Below are positions 22,174-30,819 of a stretch of 64,000 nucleotides of DNA, in pieces. The notes under the pieces are model-generated. The model saw nothing but the letters and a program-made list of their open reading frames with translations. It was not told where the DNA came from and ran no database searches. This DNA is from Halothiobacillus sp. (GTDB taxonomy: Bacteria; Pseudomonadota; Gammaproteobacteria; Halothiobacillales; Halothiobacillaceae). Both the position numbers and the translations under genes were made by a program. The DNA is taken from assembly GCA_016278265.1 (NCBI GenBank), contig JADQCE010000002.1, positions 496,001 through 560,000 of the forward strand, in the 5' to 3' direction. The number at the start of each line of letters is the position of its first letter. Position 1 is the first letter of the stretch.

Positions 22174-23481
22174 ATGGCCTTGCACTGGCAGATCCTGACC
22201 GCGCTGGCGGCGGCCTTCCTGGTCGGCGCCGTGTTCGGCACCGAGGCGGCCGGCATCCCATTGCTGGCGGTCTACGATTTCGTCGGCGGCCTGTTCCTCG
22301 ACGCGCTCAAGATGCTGATCGTGCCGTTGATCACCGCCTCGATCATCACCGGCGTGGCAAGCATCGGTAGCGCCGGCGGGGTGGGCATGATGGCCGGTCG
22401 CACGGTCATCTACTACCTGTTCTCGACCACCCTGGCCGTCACCACGGCCCTGATGGTGATGAACCTGTTCCAGCCCGGGATGTCCGGCGGCCAGCCGTTA
22501 TCGGAAACGGTTGCCCTGCCGCCGATCGGTGACGAGGTCAGCGGCCGGCTGGAGGGCAAGGAGCTGTCCGAGTTTTTCAACATCCTGCGCGACATGGTGC
22601 CGTCCAATATCGTCGAGGCCGGTGCCGAGGCGCAGATGCTGGGCCTGATCTTCTTCTCGGTGCTGTTCGGTATCGCGCTGACCCGCGCGACTTCGCCGGG
22701 GATGCAGACGGTCAAGGATTTCTGGGCCGGCGTGCAGGACGTGATGATCCAGATCACCCACTGGGTGATGAAGACGGCGCCGATCGGCGTGTTCGCGCTG
22801 GTGGCCGGCGTGATCGCCGAAAGCGGTCTGTCGGTGATCCTGCCGCTGATCGACTTCTTCCTGGCCGTAGTCATGGGGCTGGCGATTCATGCCCTGGTCG
22901 TGTTGCCGCTGCTGCTGTGGCTGGTCGCAAGGCGTTCGCCGATCCGGTTCATCCGGGCGATCTGGCCAGCCCTGCTGGTCGCCTTCTCGACCTCCTCGTC
23001 GGCCGGCACCCTGCCGATCACCCTGCAGGCGCTCACGCAACGGGCCGGTGTGTCACGCGAGACCTCCTCGTTCGTGCTGCCGTTGGGCGCAACCATCAAC
23101 ATGGACGGCACCGCGCTCTACGAATGCGCCGCGGTGCTGTTCATCGCCCAGGCCTACGGCGTGGACCTCTCCCTGTCGATGCAAATCCTGATCGTCGTGC
23201 TCGCTCTGGTGACCTCCGTCGGCGTGGCCGCCGTGCCGTCGGCAAGCCTGGTCGCGATCGCCCTGATTCTTGGTGTCCTCGGCCTGCCGCTGGAGGCCAT
23301 GGGGCTGTTGCTGGTGGTCGACCGCTTGTTGGACATGCTGCGCACCTCGGTGAACGTCTACAGCGACGCCACCGGCGCGGTAATCGTCGCTCGTCTGCGC
23401 GGCGAGGATCGCGTTCTGATGGATACGCGCCCGGAGGGAGACGAGGCGGGTGAGCCTGCCTTGAGTGGCGAGCGTGGCTGA
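22174..23481 (+). CDS. Sodium/proton:dicarboxylate or amino-acid symporter (DAACS/SDF family)
   Basis: 435 residues, about eight membrane segments plus two re-entrant hairpins. Family signatures: DALKMLIVPLITASIITGV, the serine-rich hairpin STSSSAGTLP, and NMDGTALYE in TM7, followed by ASLVAIALILGVLGLP (HP2). It imports glutamate/aspartate or C4-dicarboxylates with Na+ or H+. The exact substrate (GltP, GltT, DctA) cannot be read from this sequence with confidence. It follows ppiD by 52 bp and could be read through from it. Confidence 0.9.
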   Translation: MALHWQILTALAAAFLVGAVFGTEAAGIPLLAVYDFVGGLFLDALKMLIVPLITASIITGVASIGSAGGVGMMAGRTVIYYLFSTTLAVTTALMVMNLFQPGMSGGQPLSETVALPPIGDEVSGRLEGKELSEFFNILRDMVPSNIVEAGAEAQMLGLIFFSVLFGIALTRATSPGMQTVKDFWAGVQDVMIQITHWVMKTAPIGVFALVAGVIAESGLSVILPLIDFFLAVVMGLAIHALVVLPLLLWLVARRSPIRFIRAIWPALLVAFSTSSSAGTLPITLQALTQRAGVSRETSSFVLPLGATINMDGTALYECAAVLFIAQAYGVDLSLSMQILIVVLALVTSVGVAAVPSASLVAIALILGVLGLPLEAMGLLLVVDRLLDMLRTSVNVYSDATGAVIVARLRGEDRVLMDTRPEGDEAGEPALSGERG

Positions 23482-23604: not shown

Positions 23605-24291
23605 TCAGTACTCCAGAGTGTCCAGATCGATGGTCTCGAAGTTGCGATCATCGACCTCCACGCTGTCCTGAATGTTCCAGAGATTGTATTCCGGGATCGC
23701 CCACAGCAGGGCGAGGAAGGCCACGACCAGGATCACCTGCCACCACTTGATCCGCTGGATCGGCTCGAGCTGCTTGATGCGGCAGGCGCCACCCGGGCAG
23801 AGTTGCGCCTGCTTGCCAGTAAGCAGGTTGTAGGCCACGCAGCCCAGGCAAATGCCGAAGGCCGATTCGAAGGCCAGGAACAGCAGGCAGGCGGAACAGC
23901 CGACCAGGTTCATCAGGCCGGTGTTCGCCTCGATGAATACCACCCAGATCATGACGGCCGCGATCAGCAGGCCGATCCCCCAGGCCACCCGCTTTTGCGG
24001 AGCCCCGACGTACTCGACCTCCTGATTGCGCGTGATCAGGCGTCCCATGATCATGAACGGGGCGTACTGTGGATTGACCAGTACGCGGACGGCAAACTCC
24101 ACCGTGAAGGCGAGGATCAGCAGGCGTTCCCACATGAAATCGCCGGTGAGAAACCCCTGGGCGAAGGCAAAACCGGCAAACAGCGCCAGCAAACCGGCCG
24201 CCGCGCGGGCCTCGCGCTCGTTGATGACTCGAACCGGGTACTCGTCGACCTGCTCGCCAAAATGAAACACCTTGCGGATGCCGGTATCCAT
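23605..24291 (-). CDS. DUF4395 integral membrane protein
   Basis: 228 residues from the ATG at 24291, chosen because GGAGGAGACAGGGAG lies just upstream on the minus strand; the frame is open further but has no such site. It starts MDTGIRKVFHFGEQVDEYPV, and the family core GFLTGDFMWERLLILAFTVE and NPQYAPFMIMGRLITRNQE is plain. Five or so membrane segments. Six cysteines in GCSAC, CLGC and CPGGAC pairs could bind metal or form disulfides. Function unknown; it is a single-gene unit between two terminators. Confidence 0.82.
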   Translation of the reverse strand: MDTGIRKVFHFGEQVDEYPVRVINEREARAAAGLLALFAGFAFAQGFLTGDFMWERLLILAFTVEFAVRVLVNPQYAPFMIMGRLITRNQEVEYVGAPQKRVAWGIGLLIAAVMIWVVFIEANTGLMNLVGCSACLLFLAFESAFGICLGCVAYNLLTGKQAQLCPGGACRIKQLEPIQRIKWWQVILVVAFLALLWAIPEYNLWNIQDSVEVDDRNFETIDLDTLEY

Positions 24292-24433
24292 GCTCCCTGT
24301 CTCCTCCAGTATGTCCTGATTCACTGATATTCGTGTACGGGAATGGTGGTGGCGGGGAAAGACCTTTTCCAATCAAAGTTTTCTCGGCAAGACCTCGCGT
24401 TTTTATCGGTCTTGTTGGAACGCCGCGGCCTGA

Positions 24434-24485: not shown

Positions 24486-25277
24486 TCAGTCTTCGCAGCG
24501 ACCCATGCCGGTGATGAAATAGCCGGAATCGACGTGCACGTTCTCGCCGGTGATCCCCGAGGCCAGGTCCGAGCAGAGGAAGGCGGCCGTGTTGCCGACT
24601 TGCTCGATCGTGACGTTGCGACGCAGCGGGGCGTTGGTGGAAACGTAGTCGAGGAAGCCCTTGAAGTCGCCAATACCCGAGGCGGCCAACGTCTTGATCG
24701 GGCCGGCCGAGATCGCGTTGACCCGGATGCCGCGCTCGCCCAGCTTGGAGGCAGCCAGGTAGCGGACCGTGGCCTCGAGCGAGGCCTTGGCCACGCCCAT
24801 CACGTTGTAGTTCTTCATGACGCGCTCGGCGCCGAGGTAGCTCAGCGTCAGCATCGCGCCCTCGTCACGAAGGTGCGGCTCACCGGCCTTGGCCAACGCG
24901 GCCAGCGAATAGGCGGAAACGTCGTGCGCCTGGGCAAAGGCCTCGCGAGACATGCCGTCGAGGAAGTCGCCGTCGAGCGCTTCGCGCGGGGCGAAGGCCA
25001 TGGCGTGAATGATGATGTCGACACCCTCCGGCCAGTGTTCGGCCAGCGCCGGGAAGAGTGCGTCGATCTGGGCGTCATCGGTGGCGTCCAGCGGCAGGTA
25101 GATCGAGGATCCCAGATCCTTGGTGGCCTTCTCGACCTTCGGCTTGAAGCGGTCGTTGAGGTAGGTGAAGGCCAGCTCGGCACCCTCGCGGTGCATCGCC
25201 GCGGCGATCCCGTAGGCGATCGAGCGGTTGTTGGCAATGCCGGTAATCAGGGCGCGCTTGCCGGATAGGAATCCCAT
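24486..25277 (-). CDS. fabI: Enoyl-[acyl-carrier-protein] reductase [NADH] FabI
   Basis: 263 residues from the ATG at 25277 ([20 protein letters not shown]), preceded by an AGGAGA ribosome binding site. It carries out the last reduction in each cycle of type II fatty-acid elongation. The SDR-type active site is visible: Tyr147 (SYLGAE), Tyr157 and Lys164 (YNVMGVAK), matching E. coli Tyr146/156 and Lys163. NAD-binding [11 protein letters not shown] is intact. The frame extends upstream to 25448 without a family match; that part is the intergenic region. Confidence 0.97.
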
Positions 25278-25386
25278 GGGTCTCTCCTGTTTTCCAAAGG
25301 TGGGGGCGGCGGCATCGATGCGGGCGGGTAAAACCGTCCGGTGATGCTTGGCCTGCGTTCGACTTTCACCGTATTGTATTCGCCTG

Positions 25387-27354
25387 ATGACTAACAAGCA
25401 CCCCACACCCGCCAGGTCGCGGTCGACCCATGGTATCGAGGCAGCCAATGCCCCCGGCGACGGGGTGAACCGGCTGTTGCCCGACCGGCGTGCCTTCCTG
25501 CGTCACATGGTCGGGCTGGGCGGCCTAGCCGCGATGTCGAGCATGCCGACGCTCACACGCGCGGCCGGCTTTGCCGAGGGATTGGGCTATTCGCCGGCTT
25601 ACCCGGTGGAGTTCCCGCATTTCGATTACGTCAACCCGGCCGCACCGCGCGAGGGGTCGCTGACGTTGTCGGTATTCGGCTCCTTTGATTCGCTCAACCC
25701 CTTCCTGCTCAAGGGGCTGGCCGCCACCGGGACCAATACCTTGCTGTTCGACACGCTGGTGGTGCGGGCTTGGGACGAGCCGTTTTCCGTCTACGGCCTG
25801 CTGGCCGATCGGCTCGAGCTGGCCGATGACGGCCTGTCGGCGACGTTTCGCATCAACCGCGAGGCGCGTTTCGTCGATGGACGGCCGGTCACCGCCCGTG
25901 ACGTGGTGTTCACTTTCGAGACACTGGTGGGAGAGGCCGCGCACCCACGCTATCGCTATTACTGGGCCGACGTGGCCGCGGCCACGGCCGTCGATCCCTC
26001 GCACGTGCGGTTCGATTTCCGTCGCGCGAATCCCGAGTTGCACATGATCGTCGGCGAGTTGCCGGTGTTTTCCCGCGATGCCCTGATCGACATCGACTTC
26101 GCCGAGCATTCGCGCACGCCGTTGCCGGGCAGCGGCCCCTACCAGATCGAGGCGTTGAACTTCGGTCGTGACATCCGCTATCGCCGTCGCGACGATTACT
26201 GGGCGCGGGATCTGGGCGTGAACCAGGGCATGCACAACTTCCGCACGCTGGAGTTCAAGTACTACAAGGACGAGACGGTGGCGCTCGAGGCGTTCAAGGC
26301 GGGCGAATTCGACGTCTTCCATGAGACTAACTCCAAGCGCTGGGCGCGCGCCTACCACGGCGAGCCATTTGAGGAAGGGCGCATCCGTCGTCGCGAGATC
26401 CCGCATCACAACAACGCCGGCATGCAGGGCTTTGCCATGAACACGCGCCGGTCATTGTTCCAGGATCGACGTGTGCGGCGCGCCCTGAATCTCGCCTTCG
26501 ATTTCCACTGGTCCAACGTTCACTTGTTCTACGGTCAGTACAGTCGTTGCGAGAGTTACTTTTCCAACAGTGAGCTGGCGGCGACTGGCGTTCCGGAAGG
26601 TCGCGAGCGGGAGCTGCTCGCACCCTTCCGCGACGCATTGCCAGCCGAGCTGTTCCGAGAGCCGCACGTCGTGCCGTTCGCACCGGATCCCGAGGCCCAG
26701 CGGGCAAACTTGATCGAGGCGCAAAGGCTGCTCAAAGAAGCCGGCTGGGAGGTGGTCGACGGGTGGCTGCGCAACCCGAATGATGAGCCGTTCCGTTTCG
26801 AGATCATGCTGGCGCAGCGCGGTTTCGAACGCATCGTCGCGCCGTTTGCCTACAACCTGCGTCGGCTGGGGATTGATGTCTCGTATCGCACCATCGATGT
26901 GGCCCTCTACCAGCGGCGCATGAACCGCTTCGAATTCGACATGACCGTCGTCTCCTACGGCCAGTCGCAGTCGCCGGGCAACGAGCTGCGCGAGATGTTC
27001 GGCAGCGAATCGGCGCAACGCGAGGGCTCGCGCAACTACAGTGGTATCGATGATCCCGTGGTCGATGCGATGATCGAGGCGGTGATCTACGCCGAGGATC
27101 GCGAGGCGCTGGTTACCGCCTGCCGGGCACTCGACCGGGTGCTGATGTGGCACGAATACCTGGTGCCGAACTGGTACATCGGCGCGCATCGACTGGCATG
27201 GTGGAACCGCTTTGACTACCACGACAAGCCGCTGCCTCGTTATTTCAGCGGGGCGGAATGGGTGATGCAGACCTGGTGGGAGACACACGCCGAACCCCAG
27301 CCGGGGCCGGTGGTCAACGACGTGAGCAGCCTGAATGGAGGGAGCCCGTCATGA
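25387..27354 (+). CDS. yejA: Peptide ABC transporter substrate-binding protein, YejA type (SBP family 5)
   Basis: About 655 residues from ATG 25387. A Tat-type signal ([19 protein letters not shown], residues 32-50) shows export in the folded state, unlike the Sec signal usual in E. coli YejA. The mature part has the family-5 features: [58 protein letters not shown] and [17 protein letters not shown], all typical of YejA. Cytoplasmic-membrane importer component for oligopeptides. No clear ribosome binding site is seen, so the start is uncertain; an upstream ATG at 25348 is less likely. Its stop overlaps the next gene. Confidence 0.9.
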
Positions 27355-28031
27355 AAGCAGACGACCAACCGGTGTTACGCACCGGAACGCATAATCGGAT
27401 CGGCGCGGGGCGGATGGTCCCCATATTGGCCCTGTTGGCCCTGGCGGCCGCCGTGGCACTGGCCGGCTGTGCTGGTCCGCGCTATGCCACCGAGGTGCGC
27501 TACCTGCCGCCGACGAGCCAGGCGGGGCTGTCCTGCCTGCAGGGCTGCCAGACCGGCATGCAGGCCTGTCAGGCCGATTGCCAGTCACGCCGCCAGAGCT
27601 GCATCGCGGGCATCCAGCCGCGGGTGGACGCCGCCTTCGATCAGGCCCTGCGCCAGTACGAGGCCGAGCGTCGCGTCTACATGCGCGAGCGCCAGTACTA
27701 CCAGCTCGACCGGGCCATGCAGTTTGGCCTGTACCGCGACCCGTTCTACTACGGCTACCCGGCCTCGTTCTGGTACACGGATCGTTTCTACGACGATCCG
27801 CCGGTGCCGCCGCGGGCGCCGAGTCGCGACGAGGTTCGCGCCGCGGTGATCGATCGCGAATGCAACTTCGATTGCGGCTGCCAGACCGCCTTCGACCAGT
27901 GCTACATCGGCTGTGGCGGTCAGGTCGAGCGGCGCGTGGTCTGCGTGGAGAACTGTGACGGCGAGGCGCCAGTCTCGCGCATCCCGGTCAATCCGAATAG
28001 CGGCCCCAACGACAGGGGCGGGGCAGAGTAG
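27351..28031 (+). CDS. Cysteine-rich lipoprotein with twin CX3C motifs
   Basis: 226 residues from the ATG at 27351, which overlaps the yejA stop (ATGA) and has GGAGGGAG upstream. A lipobox ALAGC puts the lipidated Cys at residue 40, after an unusually long, partly charged N-terminal region. The mature part has two clusters: C-x3-C-x6-C-x3-C-x6-C just after the lipobox, and another seven cysteines near the C-terminus, again with repeated C-x3-C. Between them lies a Tyr/Arg/Phe-rich helix-prone stretch (YMRERQYYQLDRAMQFG). I do not recognise the family. It lies inside the yej operon, which suggests a link to peptide uptake. Confidence 0.78.
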   Translation: MKADDQPVLRTGTHNRIGAGRMVPILALLALAAAVALAGCAGPRYATEVRYLPPTSQAGLSCLQGCQTGMQACQADCQSRRQSCIAGIQPRVDAAFDQALRQYEAERRVYMRERQYYQLDRAMQFGLYRDPFYYGYPASFWYTDRFYDDPPVPPRAPSRDEVRAAVIDRECNFDCGCQTAFDQCYIGCGGQVERRVVCVENCDGEAPVSRIPVNPNSGPNDRGGAE

Positions 28032-29090
28032 ATGGGCGCGTATATCGCCAAGCGCCTGGCCCTGATGATCCCGACCTTGTTCGGGATCCTGCTGATCTCG
28101 TTCGCCGTGATCCAGTTCGTCCCCGGCGGGCCGGTCGAGCAATTGATGATGCAGCTCAAAGGCGGCACCCAGGGCGCGGCGGCCGAAGCCGGCGGTCAGT
28201 TTAGCGGCGGTCTGTATCGTGGCGAACAGGGGCTGGGCGAAGAGCAGATCGAGCAGTTCCGCGAGTTCTACGGCTTCGACCAACCGGCCTGGCAGCGCTT
28301 TGGCGACATGCTCGTCAACTATCTGACCTTCGATCTGGGCGAGTCGTACTTCTACCAGCGGTCCGTCGGTGAGCTGATCGTCGAGAAGCTGCCGGTCTCG
28401 ATCAGTCTTGGGATATGGACCTTCCTGCTCACCTATTTGGTCTCCATTCCGCTCGGGGTAGCCAAGGCGGTGCGCGATGGCAGCAAGTTCGACTCGATCA
28501 CCTCGACGGTCATCCTGGTTGGGTATGCCATCCCCGGCTTCGTCCTGGGCCTGGTGCTGCTGGTGCTGTTGGGCGGCGGCAGCTTCGTGCAGTGGTTCCC
28601 GCTGCGCGGGCTGACCTCGGACAACTTCGAGCAGTTGTCTCTCATGGGCAAGATCCTCGACTACCTCTGGCACCTGGTGCTGCCGATCACGGCGATGGTG
28701 GTGGGCAACTTCGCCGTGATGACCATGCTGACCAAGAACAGCTTCCTCGAGGAGATCCGCAAGCAGTATGTGCTGACCGCTCGGGCGAAGGGGCTGGCCG
28801 AGCGCACGGTGCTCTATCGTCACGTGTTCCGCAACGCGCTGATTCCGATCATCACCGGCTTTCCGGCGGCGTTCATCGGCGCATTCTTTACCGGCAGCCT
28901 GCTGATCGAGACCATCTTCTCGCTCGACGGGCTGGGGCTCTTGTCCTACAACGCCGTGCTGCAGCGCGACTACCCAGTGGTGCTGGGCACGCTGTACATC
29001 TTTAGCCTGATCGGTCTGTTCGGCAAGCTGCTGTCGGATCTCATCTACGTCTGGGTCGACCCACGCATTCATTTCGAGGCGGTGCGCTGA
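28032..29090 (+). CDS. yejB: Peptide ABC transporter permease YejB
   Basis: 352 residues, begins immediately after the lipoprotein stop. Six membrane segments in the binding-protein-dependent permease fold: AKRLALMIPTLFGILLISF, then after a YejB-type periplasmic insertion the EAA-loop region QYVLTARAKGLAERTVLYRH, followed by FRNALIPIITGFPAAFIGAFF. It forms the membrane channel with YejE. Overlaps yejE by one base. Confidence 0.93.
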   Translation: MGAYIAKRLALMIPTLFGILLISFAVIQFVPGGPVEQLMMQLKGGTQGAAAEAGGQFSGGLYRGEQGLGEEQIEQFREFYGFDQPAWQRFGDMLVNYLTFDLGESYFYQRSVGELIVEKLPVSISLGIWTFLLTYLVSIPLGVAKAVRDGSKFDSITSTVILVGYAIPGFVLGLVLLVLLGGGSFVQWFPLRGLTSDNFEQLSLMGKILDYLWHLVLPITAMVVGNFAVMTMLTKNSFLEEIRKQYVLTARAKGLAERTVLYRHVFRNALIPIITGFPAAFIGAFFTGSLLIETIFSLDGLGLLSYNAVLQRDYPVVLGTLYIFSLIGLFGKLLSDLIYVWVDPRIHFEAVR

Positions 29091-30163
29091 TGTCGATCGT
29101 CGATGCCGGAGCCGAATCCGCGGTTGCCAAGGGAAGTGGCGCCGAGACGCAGATCTCGACGGCGTCGCGTGCCTGGAAGCGCTTTCGTCGCCACAGGCGC
29201 GGCTGGATTAGCCTTTGGCTGTTTCTCGCCCTGTTTGTCCTCAGCCTTGGCGCCGAGCTGATCGCCAACGACCGGCCGCTGCTCGTCAAACACCAGGGCG
29301 AGTTGCTGTTTCCGTTGTGGAACGATTATCCCGAGACGCGTTTCGGCGGGGATTTTGCCTCGGCCGCCGACTACACCGATCCGCATGTCGTCGAGCTGAT
29401 CGAGCGCGATGGCTGGGTGATTCGCGCCCCGATCCCGTTTTCCTTCGACACGATCGACTACTACAACGAGGAGCCCAACCCGGCCGCACCCAACAGCCGG
29501 CACCTGCTGGGCACCGATGACCGCGGCCGCGACGTCGCCGCCCGGCTGATCTATGGCTTTCGCATTTCGGTGCTGTTCGCGCTGGCGTTGACGGTGATCG
29601 GCACGGCCGTCGGCGTGCTTGCCGGGGCGGTGCAGGGGTATCTCGGCGGCAAGACGGATCTCGTCTTCCAGCGATTCATCGAGGTCTGGGCGGCGCTGCC
29701 GGAGCTGTATCTGCTGATCATCTTCGCCTCGATCTTCGAGCCGTCGATCGGGCTGTTGCTGGCGTTGCTGGCGCTATTCGGTTGGATGGGGCTGTCGGAC
29801 TACGTCCGTGCCGAGTTCCTCAAGGGCCGCAACCTCGACTACGTGCGCGCCGCGCGGGCGCTTGGGGTCTCCGGCTCGCGGCTGATGTTCCGCCACCTGC
29901 TGCCCAACGCCATGACCCCGGTGATCACCTTTCTGCCTTTCCGCATCTCCGGGGCGGTGCTGGCGCTGACCAGCCTCGACTTCCTCGGACTGGGCGTGCC
30001 GCCGTCTACCCCCTCGCTGGGCGAGCTGCTCTCGCAGGGCAAGAACAACATCGATGCCTGGTGGCTGTCGGTCTCGACCTTCTTCGTGCTGGTCGGCACG
30101 CTGGTGCTGTTGATCTTCGTCGGCGAGGCCACGCGCGACGCGCTGGACACCCGCCGGGGCTGA
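29090..30163 (+). CDS. yejE: Peptide ABC transporter permease YejE
   Basis: 357 residues. The N-terminal RFRRHRRGWISLWLFLALF and the YejE-type PLLVKHQGELLFPLW with YPETRFGGDF are distinctive. The EAA loop is EFLKGRNLDYVRAARALGVS and ends with LDFLGLGVPPSTPSLGELL. It pairs with YejB. The usual next gene, yejF (ATPase), is missing: a REP doublet and unrelated genes follow. Confidence 0.93.
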   Translation: MSIVDAGAESAVAKGSGAETQISTASRAWKRFRRHRRGWISLWLFLALFVLSLGAELIANDRPLLVKHQGELLFPLWNDYPETRFGGDFASAADYTDPHVVELIERDGWVIRAPIPFSFDTIDYYNEEPNPAAPNSRHLLGTDDRGRDVAARLIYGFRISVLFALALTVIGTAVGVLAGAVQGYLGGKTDLVFQRFIEVWAALPELYLLIIFASIFEPSIGLLLALLALFGWMGLSDYVRAEFLKGRNLDYVRAARALGVSGSRLMFRHLLPNAMTPVITFLPFRISGAVLALTSLDFLGLGVPPSTPSLGELLSQGKNNIDAWWLSVSTFFVLVGTLVLLIFVGEATRDALDTRRG

Positions 30164-30175
30164 TCGGACCCCGCC

Positions 30176-30247
30176 GTAGGAGCGGCTTTGGCCGCGATAG
30201 GCAGGGTTTCCCGCGATTGGATTTCGCGCCTGAAGGCGCTCCTGCGG
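30176..30247. repeat. REP doublet (BIME-like inverted pair)
   Basis: GTAGGAGCGGCTTTGGCCGC (30176-30195, then GA) is one REP unit with the 5' GTAG head seen in REPs mobilised by RAYT transposases. It is matched in inverse orientation by 30223-30247, whose complement reads GCAGGAGCGCCTTCAGGCGC. Both fold into stem-loops (GCGGC/GCCGC type). A further hairpin, GGCCGC (30282-30287) with GCGGCC (30292-30297), may end the yej transcript. The rest of 30248-30420 holds no gene. Confidence 0.75.
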
Positions 30248-30420
30248 AATTCACAATCGTGAGGCAAACCTCGCTCAATAAGGCCGCCCTAGCGGCCGTT
30301 CTGGCGACGATGGACTAAAGCACCAGATTCCTGTCCTTCCCTTGCCACCCGGTCGACCCGCTCGGGTATCATGGCGCGTCGAGAGAGTCCTCCAACCGCC
30401 CCGTCACGGATCGATCGCGC

Positions 30421-30819
30421 ATGCCGAAGAAATCCCGCCAGAATCGTCTTCCCGGAGAGGCCTACGCCCCGGGCATCCACGCCCGACTGTGGCTGATCGA
30501 CGAGGCGGGCGAGCATTACCTGGGCGTGGGCAAGGTGCGGCTGATGGAGGCGATCGACGAGCTGGGTTCGATCAGCCACGCCGCCCGCACGCTGGGCATG
30601 AGCTACAAGCGTGCTTGGTCGCTGATCCAGGAGGTCAACCAGCTCGAGGACGAGCCCTATGTCTCCAAGGAGGTCGGCGGCGCTGGCGGCGGCCATGCCA
30701 CGGTCACCGACACCGGCCGCGCCGCGATCGCCCGCTACCGCGAGCTCGAGGACGATCTGCGCGCCTTTCTCGCCCGGCGCGCCGAGAAGCGGGACCGAAA
30801 CCGGGGAGGGCGCTCATGA
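30421..30819 (+). CDS. ModE N-terminal-type winged helix transcriptional regulator
   Basis: 132 residues. The winged-helix domain has IHARLWLIDEAGEHYLGVGKVRLMEAI, then SISHAARTLGMSYKRAWSLI as the recognition helix and EVGGAGGGHATVTDTGRAAI as the wing: these are signatures of the ModE/LysR-type N-terminal domain of molybdate regulators. There is no C-terminal molybdate-binding (TOBE/MOP) domain, so the signal it senses is unknown. Its stop overlaps the start of the DUF455 gene (ATGA). Confidence 0.85.
   Translation: MPKKSRQNRLPGEAYAPGIHARLWLIDEAGEHYLGVGKVRLMEAIDELGSISHAARTLGMSYKRAWSLIQEVNQLEDEPYVSKEVGGAGGGHATVTDTGRAAIARYRELEDDLRAFLARRAEKRDRNRGGRS

Follow-up and report, generated by a model that had tools for sequence, protein, structure and literature searches.

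Gene X and its operon

A gene that we call X lies at positions 27351-28031 (+) of the window, the whole 64,000-nucleotide stretch of Halothiobacillus sp. DNA that was analysed. According to the list of open reading frames and the sequence, X runs from an ATG start codon to a TAG stop codon and encodes a protein of 226 amino acids. Upstream lies the yejA-like gene (25348..27354, +), the product of which is a family-5 solute-binding protein (SBP_bac_5, PF00496, E 3.1e-62); its listed TTG start may be too early. The TGA stop codon of yejA (27352-27354) overlaps the start of X as ATGA, and the ATG of the permease gene yejB (28032..29090, +; NF011712, 451.7 bits vs the NCBIfam cut-off of 445) stands immediately 3' of the TAG of X, with a gap of zero. 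A gene for a yejE-like permease follows (29090..30163, +; NF011596, 407.9 bits, below the cut-off of 439, with an OppC_N match). X is likely co-transcribed with yejA and yejB, judged from the spacing. The original prediction had noted both the overlap and the zero spacing, which we confirmed, and had proposed coexpression from them. A scan of positions 25150-30500 gave no promoter-like sites, and 6 terminator-like sites compared with a mean of 3.8 in shuffles, none of them within X. Further upstream of yejA, Pfam recognizes genes for an SDF symporter (22174-23481, +), a DUF4395 protein (23605-24372, -) and an enoyl-ACP-reductase-like protein (24486-25448, -).

We analysed whether an ATPase accompanies these genes. 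A pattern scan found no Walker A plus ABC signature anywhere in the 64-kb window, and no yejF lies beside yejABE. The same pattern was missing from 13 of 14 further Halothiobacillaceae yej loci (L054, L056-L060, L062-L064, L068, L076, L078, L095 and L098), the exception being L095, with one ATPase signature about 5 kb off that looks LolD/MacB-like by eye. The oligo_HPY model (PF08352) had zero matches in the whole source genome, as against matches in 11 of 14 control genomes. The apparent absence of a YejF-type ATPase poses the question of how YejABE is driven here.

The product of X starts with a signal peptide and the lipobox LAGC at residues 37-40 (27351..27470, +; seen in the sequence), with Cys40 as the lipid cysteine and Ala as the +2 residue. 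Besides Cys40 it has 12 cysteines, at 62, 66, 73, 77, 84, 171, 175, 177, 184, 188, 198 and 202. A lipoprotein with this number of further cysteines between yejA and yejB had been predicted, and here the lipobox and a count of positions bear the prediction out. The cysteines had also been described as C-x3-C pairs spaced by six residues, which is exact for the first five (C-x3-C-x6-C-x3-C-x6-C) and fails for the second half, C-x3-C-x-C-x6-C-x3-C-x9-C-x3-C. On the alignment and the modelled helix 57-86, the first five make up an N-terminal cysteine helix, C62-x3-C66-x6-C73-x3-C77-x6-C84 (27534..27602, +). It is followed by a long helical arm (residues 89-127; 27615..27731, +; model and alignment), which in the alignment is absent or reduced in short homologues of X, an aromatic-rich tip (residues 128-150; 27732..27800, +) of low model confidence by pLDDT, and a C-terminal cysteine segment, C171 to C202, containing a CGG motif (27861..27956, +; alignment and model).

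The lipid cysteine could be located in all 68 rows, two of which have an atypical box. The +2 residue was Ala in 53, Gly in 9, Ser in 4 and Val in 2, and never Asp. Under the E. coli Lol sorting rule, a +2 residue other than Asp directs a lipoprotein to the outer membrane; from this residue and the E. coli rule, we infer that X would be placed in the outer membrane. The source genome encodes a DsbA (L144) with a signal-like start and a CPHC motif, as read by eye, and models of DsbB (PF02600) and VKOR (PF07884) had zero matches in it.

X was detected in all 11 genomes of the genus and in 25 of the 27 Halothiobacillaceae genomes (the order-level search covered the same 27), counting G025, whose sole representative is a short homologue. 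In an alignment of 52 rows, ten of the twelve cysteines never vary. Compared with seven congeners, X has a dN of 0.064-0.275 and a dS of 0.333-0.725, giving a dN/dS of about 0.2-0.4; against G005, dN was 0.072 for X, 0.057 for most of yejA and 0.019 for yejB. As dN is well under dS, these comparisons indicate that X is a real gene under purifying selection, which is looser than that on its neighbours.

Probable cysteine pairing and predicted fold

We analysed how the cysteines vary in 78 rows, made up of the 52-row alignment (without duplicate locus copies, the frame-broken L094, L098 and L100, and the short L101 and L102) and 26 short or diverse rows; L110, L118, L121, L122, L124 and L156, with frames cut or fused or a motif missing, were left out. 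Both cysteine motifs were required of every row, so that those six cysteines are fixed by the choice of rows, and because the rows share ancestry, the counts do not represent independent events. C77 and C175 were both present in 62 rows and both absent in 16, and were thus concordant in 78 of 78. This count accepts C175 over a range of positions that was widened after inspection, without which L148 and L149 would not count as pairs; under the strict placement, all of 69 rows were concordant. After the CGG motif there were two cysteines in 65 rows and zero in 13. The total without the lipid cysteine was even in 76 of the 78 rows, L006 and L096 being odd. Taken by themselves, the 26 short or diverse rows have both C77 and C175 in 10 cases and neither in 16, with an even total in all 26. 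Covariation of C84 and C171 was imperfect, as the partner of C84 moves or is absent in several short rows. The smallest member found, the six-cysteine L123, keeps only C-x3-C-x6-C ... C-x6-C-x3-C, two mirror-image motifs that would suit an antiparallel helix pair. The five N-terminal cysteines follow one another at alternating steps of 4 and 7 residues, and an ideal helix would bring them all into an arc of 60 degrees; C177, C184 and C188 would share one of 40 degrees.

Structure prediction of X alone, which had been proposed as a check, returned confident cores of helices and strands. The AlphaFold model (pTM 0.58) has pLDDT block means of 90-98 over residues 51-120 and 151-200. Its elements are a strand (44-52), helices 57-86, 89-127, 159-171 and 177-187, and a strand (191-200), the last two helices and this strand belonging to the C-terminal cysteine segment. 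The long arm has block means of 91-98 up to residue 120 and 65 for 121-130; the tip is poorly modelled, with means of 65, 52 and 58 over residues 121-150. The short homologue L112 was modelled with a mean pLDDT of 93.2 and a pTM of 0.70, and its elements come in the same order as in X: strand, helices, strand. With the paired loss of cysteines and the mirror-image motifs of L123, the models suggest that the core of X is a hairpin of antiparallel helices held together by disulfides nested within one another. From the spacing and the paired loss, the predicted rungs are 62-188, 66-184, 73-177, 77-175 and 84-171, with 198-202 in addition; 84-171 is the weakest of them because of the shifting or missing partner of C84. 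The disulfide map of X is thus predicted and testable.

Searches of Pfam and NCBIfam found no relative of X, and no convincing one when ten relatives were used with each; a match to a known unrelated family, which the original prediction had named as telling against its proposal, did not turn up. The 52 members matched 20 Pfam families at E up to 1, the best at E 0.012 and unrelated. A profile of the 52 rows had 3 matches among PDB sequences, the best at E 0.75. At a threshold of E 0.001, fold searches had no match, either for the two models in the PDB or for the L112 model among viral proteins; the best Z values in two follow-up comparisons, 4.5 and 5.4, were to generic alpha-hairpins and were not treated as evidence of kinship. 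A match of the short homologue L114 to the EexN family of lipoproteins (E 0.0014, 18.5 bits vs a cut-off of 33) covers the signal peptide and the first cysteines and was taken as signal-peptide likeness. No description of such a protein was found in the portions of the open-access literature that the search covered.

Place of X within Halothiobacillaceae

The survey of yej operons suggested by the original prediction agreed with it inside the family: of the 26 Halothiobacillaceae genomes with detected yej genes, 24 have X next to yejA and/or yejB, one side being hidden by a contig end in G006 and G013. The overlap of X with yejA recurs in G005, G010 and G001. The other two genomes, G022 and G024, have yejABE and no match to X. 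In G025, where X is represented by the short homologue, there is no YejB match, and G021 carries a short homologue at another site in addition to the X of its operon.

The interval between yejA and yejB also accepts unrelated genes. In the genus g2, X and yejB lie about 700 bases apart at six of nine loci with a visible interval; in the four such loci read fully, one gene fills this space, and in L064 it is FMN_bind_2 by Pfam. In the genus g4, a CxxCxxCC gene (PF03692 in L133, the other copies assigned by likeness) lies within the interval of four genomes, accompanied by two X genes in G023, by one in G026 and by none in G022 and G024, where yejA, yejB and yejE surround it. In these last two (L134 and L133, respectively) yejB and yejE are separated by a gene on the other strand, whose 197-residue product has a signal-like start. 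In G023 (L023/L095, G023:C52) the two X genes between yejA and yejB are diverged tandem copies, of which the second has two extra cysteines in the arm, as do the Sulfurospirillum and Persephonella members of the family.

Relatives outside Halothiobacillaceae

A single degenerate pattern built around the CGG motif was used to scan a collection of named genomes, and yej neighbours of the 49 loci found were sought with yejA, yejB and yejE of the window as queries. There were yej genes beside X at 18 of these loci, all Halothiobacillaceae, and none at 31, some flanks being cut by contig ends. The yej-free loci belong mostly to Thiobacillus and other Hydrogenophilales and to some unplaced proteobacterial bins; the others are two from Persephonella and one each from Sulfurospirillum, Pseudomonas, a Lysobacterales bin and a Thermoflexus bin. 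At 22 of the 31, a gene like the Methyltransf_32 gene of L069 lies directly upstream on the same strand (the contig of L077 holds just the end of it), and 20 of these 22 have a convergent YaeQ gene on the downstream side; the Pfam assignments of both neighbours are those of the L069 copies. The locus in the bin named Thermoflexus (Chloroflexota), L080, has an X of the Thiobacillus type with the same methyltransferase and YaeQ neighbours, and is probably a misbinned contig. A plasmid search with one Thiobacillus homologue as query had zero matches.

The profile of the X family matches 22 of 369 genomes of the class, 18 of them outside Halothiobacillaceae. YejB exceeds the cut-off in 63 of the 369, 59 of them outside the family; G000 itself barely exceeds it (449.9 vs 445). 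Not one of the 365 class genomes outside Halothiobacillaceae has both, where the totals would predict 2.9 (18 x 59 / 365); for the 18 genomes with X, the best YejB row listed has 131.1 bits (G100). A broader profile matches 11 of 398 genomes of the phylum. Short homologues have about 125 amino acids and no long arm. Those of three genomes (L112, L115 and L117) are flanked by an ampE-like and an aceE-like gene, a context assigned by Pfam for L112. L117 carries two short homologues in tandem.

A tree was built from 56 rows, and in it a branch with full support sets the 21 methyltransferase-linked rows apart from all others. For the rows from the yej slot, in which X lies between yejA and yejB, the best tree requires three label changes: 21 of 25 are in one starred clade, and the g3 and g4 rows stand apart among long branches. 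As these rows are not one clade in the best tree, there is room for repeated entry. A single clade of them was not rejected (p-AU 0.06; 39 rows, near copies and four extra rows having been dropped, and the tested clade picked after seeing the tree). The simplest reading of these sequences would be one origin in the Halothiobacillaceae ancestor with fast divergence.

Interpretation

The yej-free loci and the separate occurrence in the class argue that X is very probably not a general subunit of YejABE, and with so many relatives elsewhere in genomes, it looks like a member of an unnamed family of envelope lipoproteins. The original prediction had suggested that it could be a membrane-anchored partner or redox-sensitive docking factor for the binding protein, and had taken a gene found mostly away from yej as evidence against this; the 31 of 49 loci without yej, 22 of them behind a methyltransferase gene, and the two genomes with yejABE alone largely answer to that description. 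We consider X to be, with fair probability, an outer-membrane lipoprotein of a scattered unnamed family, a disulfide-clamped hairpin adaptor and no needed part of the importer. X would be exported and lipidated and then reach the outer membrane. Its core would fold as an antiparallel hairpin, of which the nested disulfide ladder would clamp both legs, together with 198-202, and which one strand from each end would close; the ladder would make it a rigid pin. The long version would add the helical arm and an aromatic and proline-rich tip, probably docking on an envelope protein or peptidoglycan. The role we favour, a rigid structural pin or adaptor of the outer membrane, is a guess from this shape. 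The gene would have entered the yejA-yejB interval in the ancestor of Halothiobacillaceae and be co-expressed with yejA and yejB without being needed by the importer.

A place beside yej in 24 genomes of four genera, however, exceeds what a neutral passenger needs. X might instead be a lineage-specific accessory of YejABE, recruited from the wider family in Halothiobacillaceae, that as an outer-membrane or periplasmic lipoprotein catches peptides or tethers YejA near YejB. The 24 of 26 genomes, the recurring ATGA overlap and the zero gap, the diverged tandem copies of G023 and the three label changes, which could mean repeated entry, all speak for such an accessory. We nevertheless regard it as unlikely: G022 and G024 have yejABE without X, the interval also holds unrelated genes (FMN_bind_2 at several Halothiobacillus-type loci, CxxCxxCC in four g4 genomes), a single clade of yej-slot rows is not rejected, and X and YejB never occur together in the 365 genomes outside the family.

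The cysteines invite two further explanations. It is possible to see X as a redox switch or thiol-disulfide partner, some of whose CX3C rungs would open and close and so relay the redox state of the envelope to a partner, given that this exported protein has 12 conserved cysteines and comes from a genome with DsbA in which DsbB and VKOR went undetected. Cysteine pairs that are lost or gained together behave like structural disulfides, however, and no oxidoreductase family is among the Pfam matches of the 52 members, which makes this explanation improbable. X might also buffer a metal such as Cu(I) with cysteine-lined helices, since CX3C helices can bind metal in Csp proteins and the five N-terminal cysteines share a 60 degree arc. 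Here too the even totals and pairwise loss are what disulfides predict, and the Pfam matches of the 52 members are unconvincing (two touch ZnuA, at E 0.22 or worse); we find a metal buffer very improbable. A bolder form of our preferred reading is speculative and improbable. In it, X-type proteins would be a widespread, undescribed class of outer-membrane pins, helical hairpins held by a mirror-symmetric disulfide ladder and thus a bacterial counterpart of the twin-CX3C design of mitochondria; Halothiobacillaceae would have recruited one, perhaps repeatedly, to a Yej system without YejF, which would be driven by other means or act as a passive complex for handling peptides.

A nameless conserved lipoprotein family gains a working definition, a lipobox followed by CX3CX6C ... 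CX6CX3CGG. The unrelated contexts of the family in other lineages are a caution against inferring function from operon neighbourhood.

Comparison with known systems

In the Csp copper-storage proteins, cysteines with CX3C spacing line helices and bind metal. X is like them in the spacing and the cysteine-lined helices and unlike them in being a lipoprotein whose cysteines vary in pairs, and no Csp family is among the Pfam matches of the 52 members.

YejABEF is an importer of peptides, microcin C and muropeptides. Described Yej systems, in the sections of the sources consulted, consist of YejA or YepA, YejB, YejE and YejF (PMC10924461, PMC9790009), and the word 'lipoprotein' has 0 occurrences in the main text of either paper. 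X shares an operon with yejABE in Halothiobacillaceae; no Pfam match of X to a solute-binding protein, permease or ATPase was found. A component of YejABEF should be encoded with yej wherever it occurs, which is so at 18 of 49 loci and not at 31, and be present wherever yejABE is in the clade, from which G022 and G024 depart. YejBEF-YepA has been linked with peptidoglycan recycling in Agrobacterium, according to the part of PMC9790009 consulted. A similar link for X, to which the ampE beside short homologues also pointed, was dropped because the methyltransferase context does not fit.

In the small Tim proteins (Tim8/9/10/12/13), two CX3C motifs about 11-16 residues apart face each other across nested disulfides. 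The original prediction had likened X to them; the idea of a CX3C-stapled helical hairpin is likely to hold by analogy, and neither the Tim spacing nor a family match does. X has six residues between CX3C units and five cysteines in the first helix; it is a bacterial lipoprotein with five plus seven cysteines rather than two CX3C motifs, and its family has a mirror-image CX3CX6C/CX6CX3C core with flanking strands. Tim and CHCH families are absent from the 20 Pfam families matched by the 52 members at E up to 1, and, on these comparisons of sequence, X is not a member of the small Tim family. Twin CX3C is described as a feature of small Tims of the mitochondrial intermembrane space in the portion of PMC5203823 that we drew on. 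If the nested ladder of X is true, it would be an independent bacterial answer to the stapling of hairpins in mitochondria.
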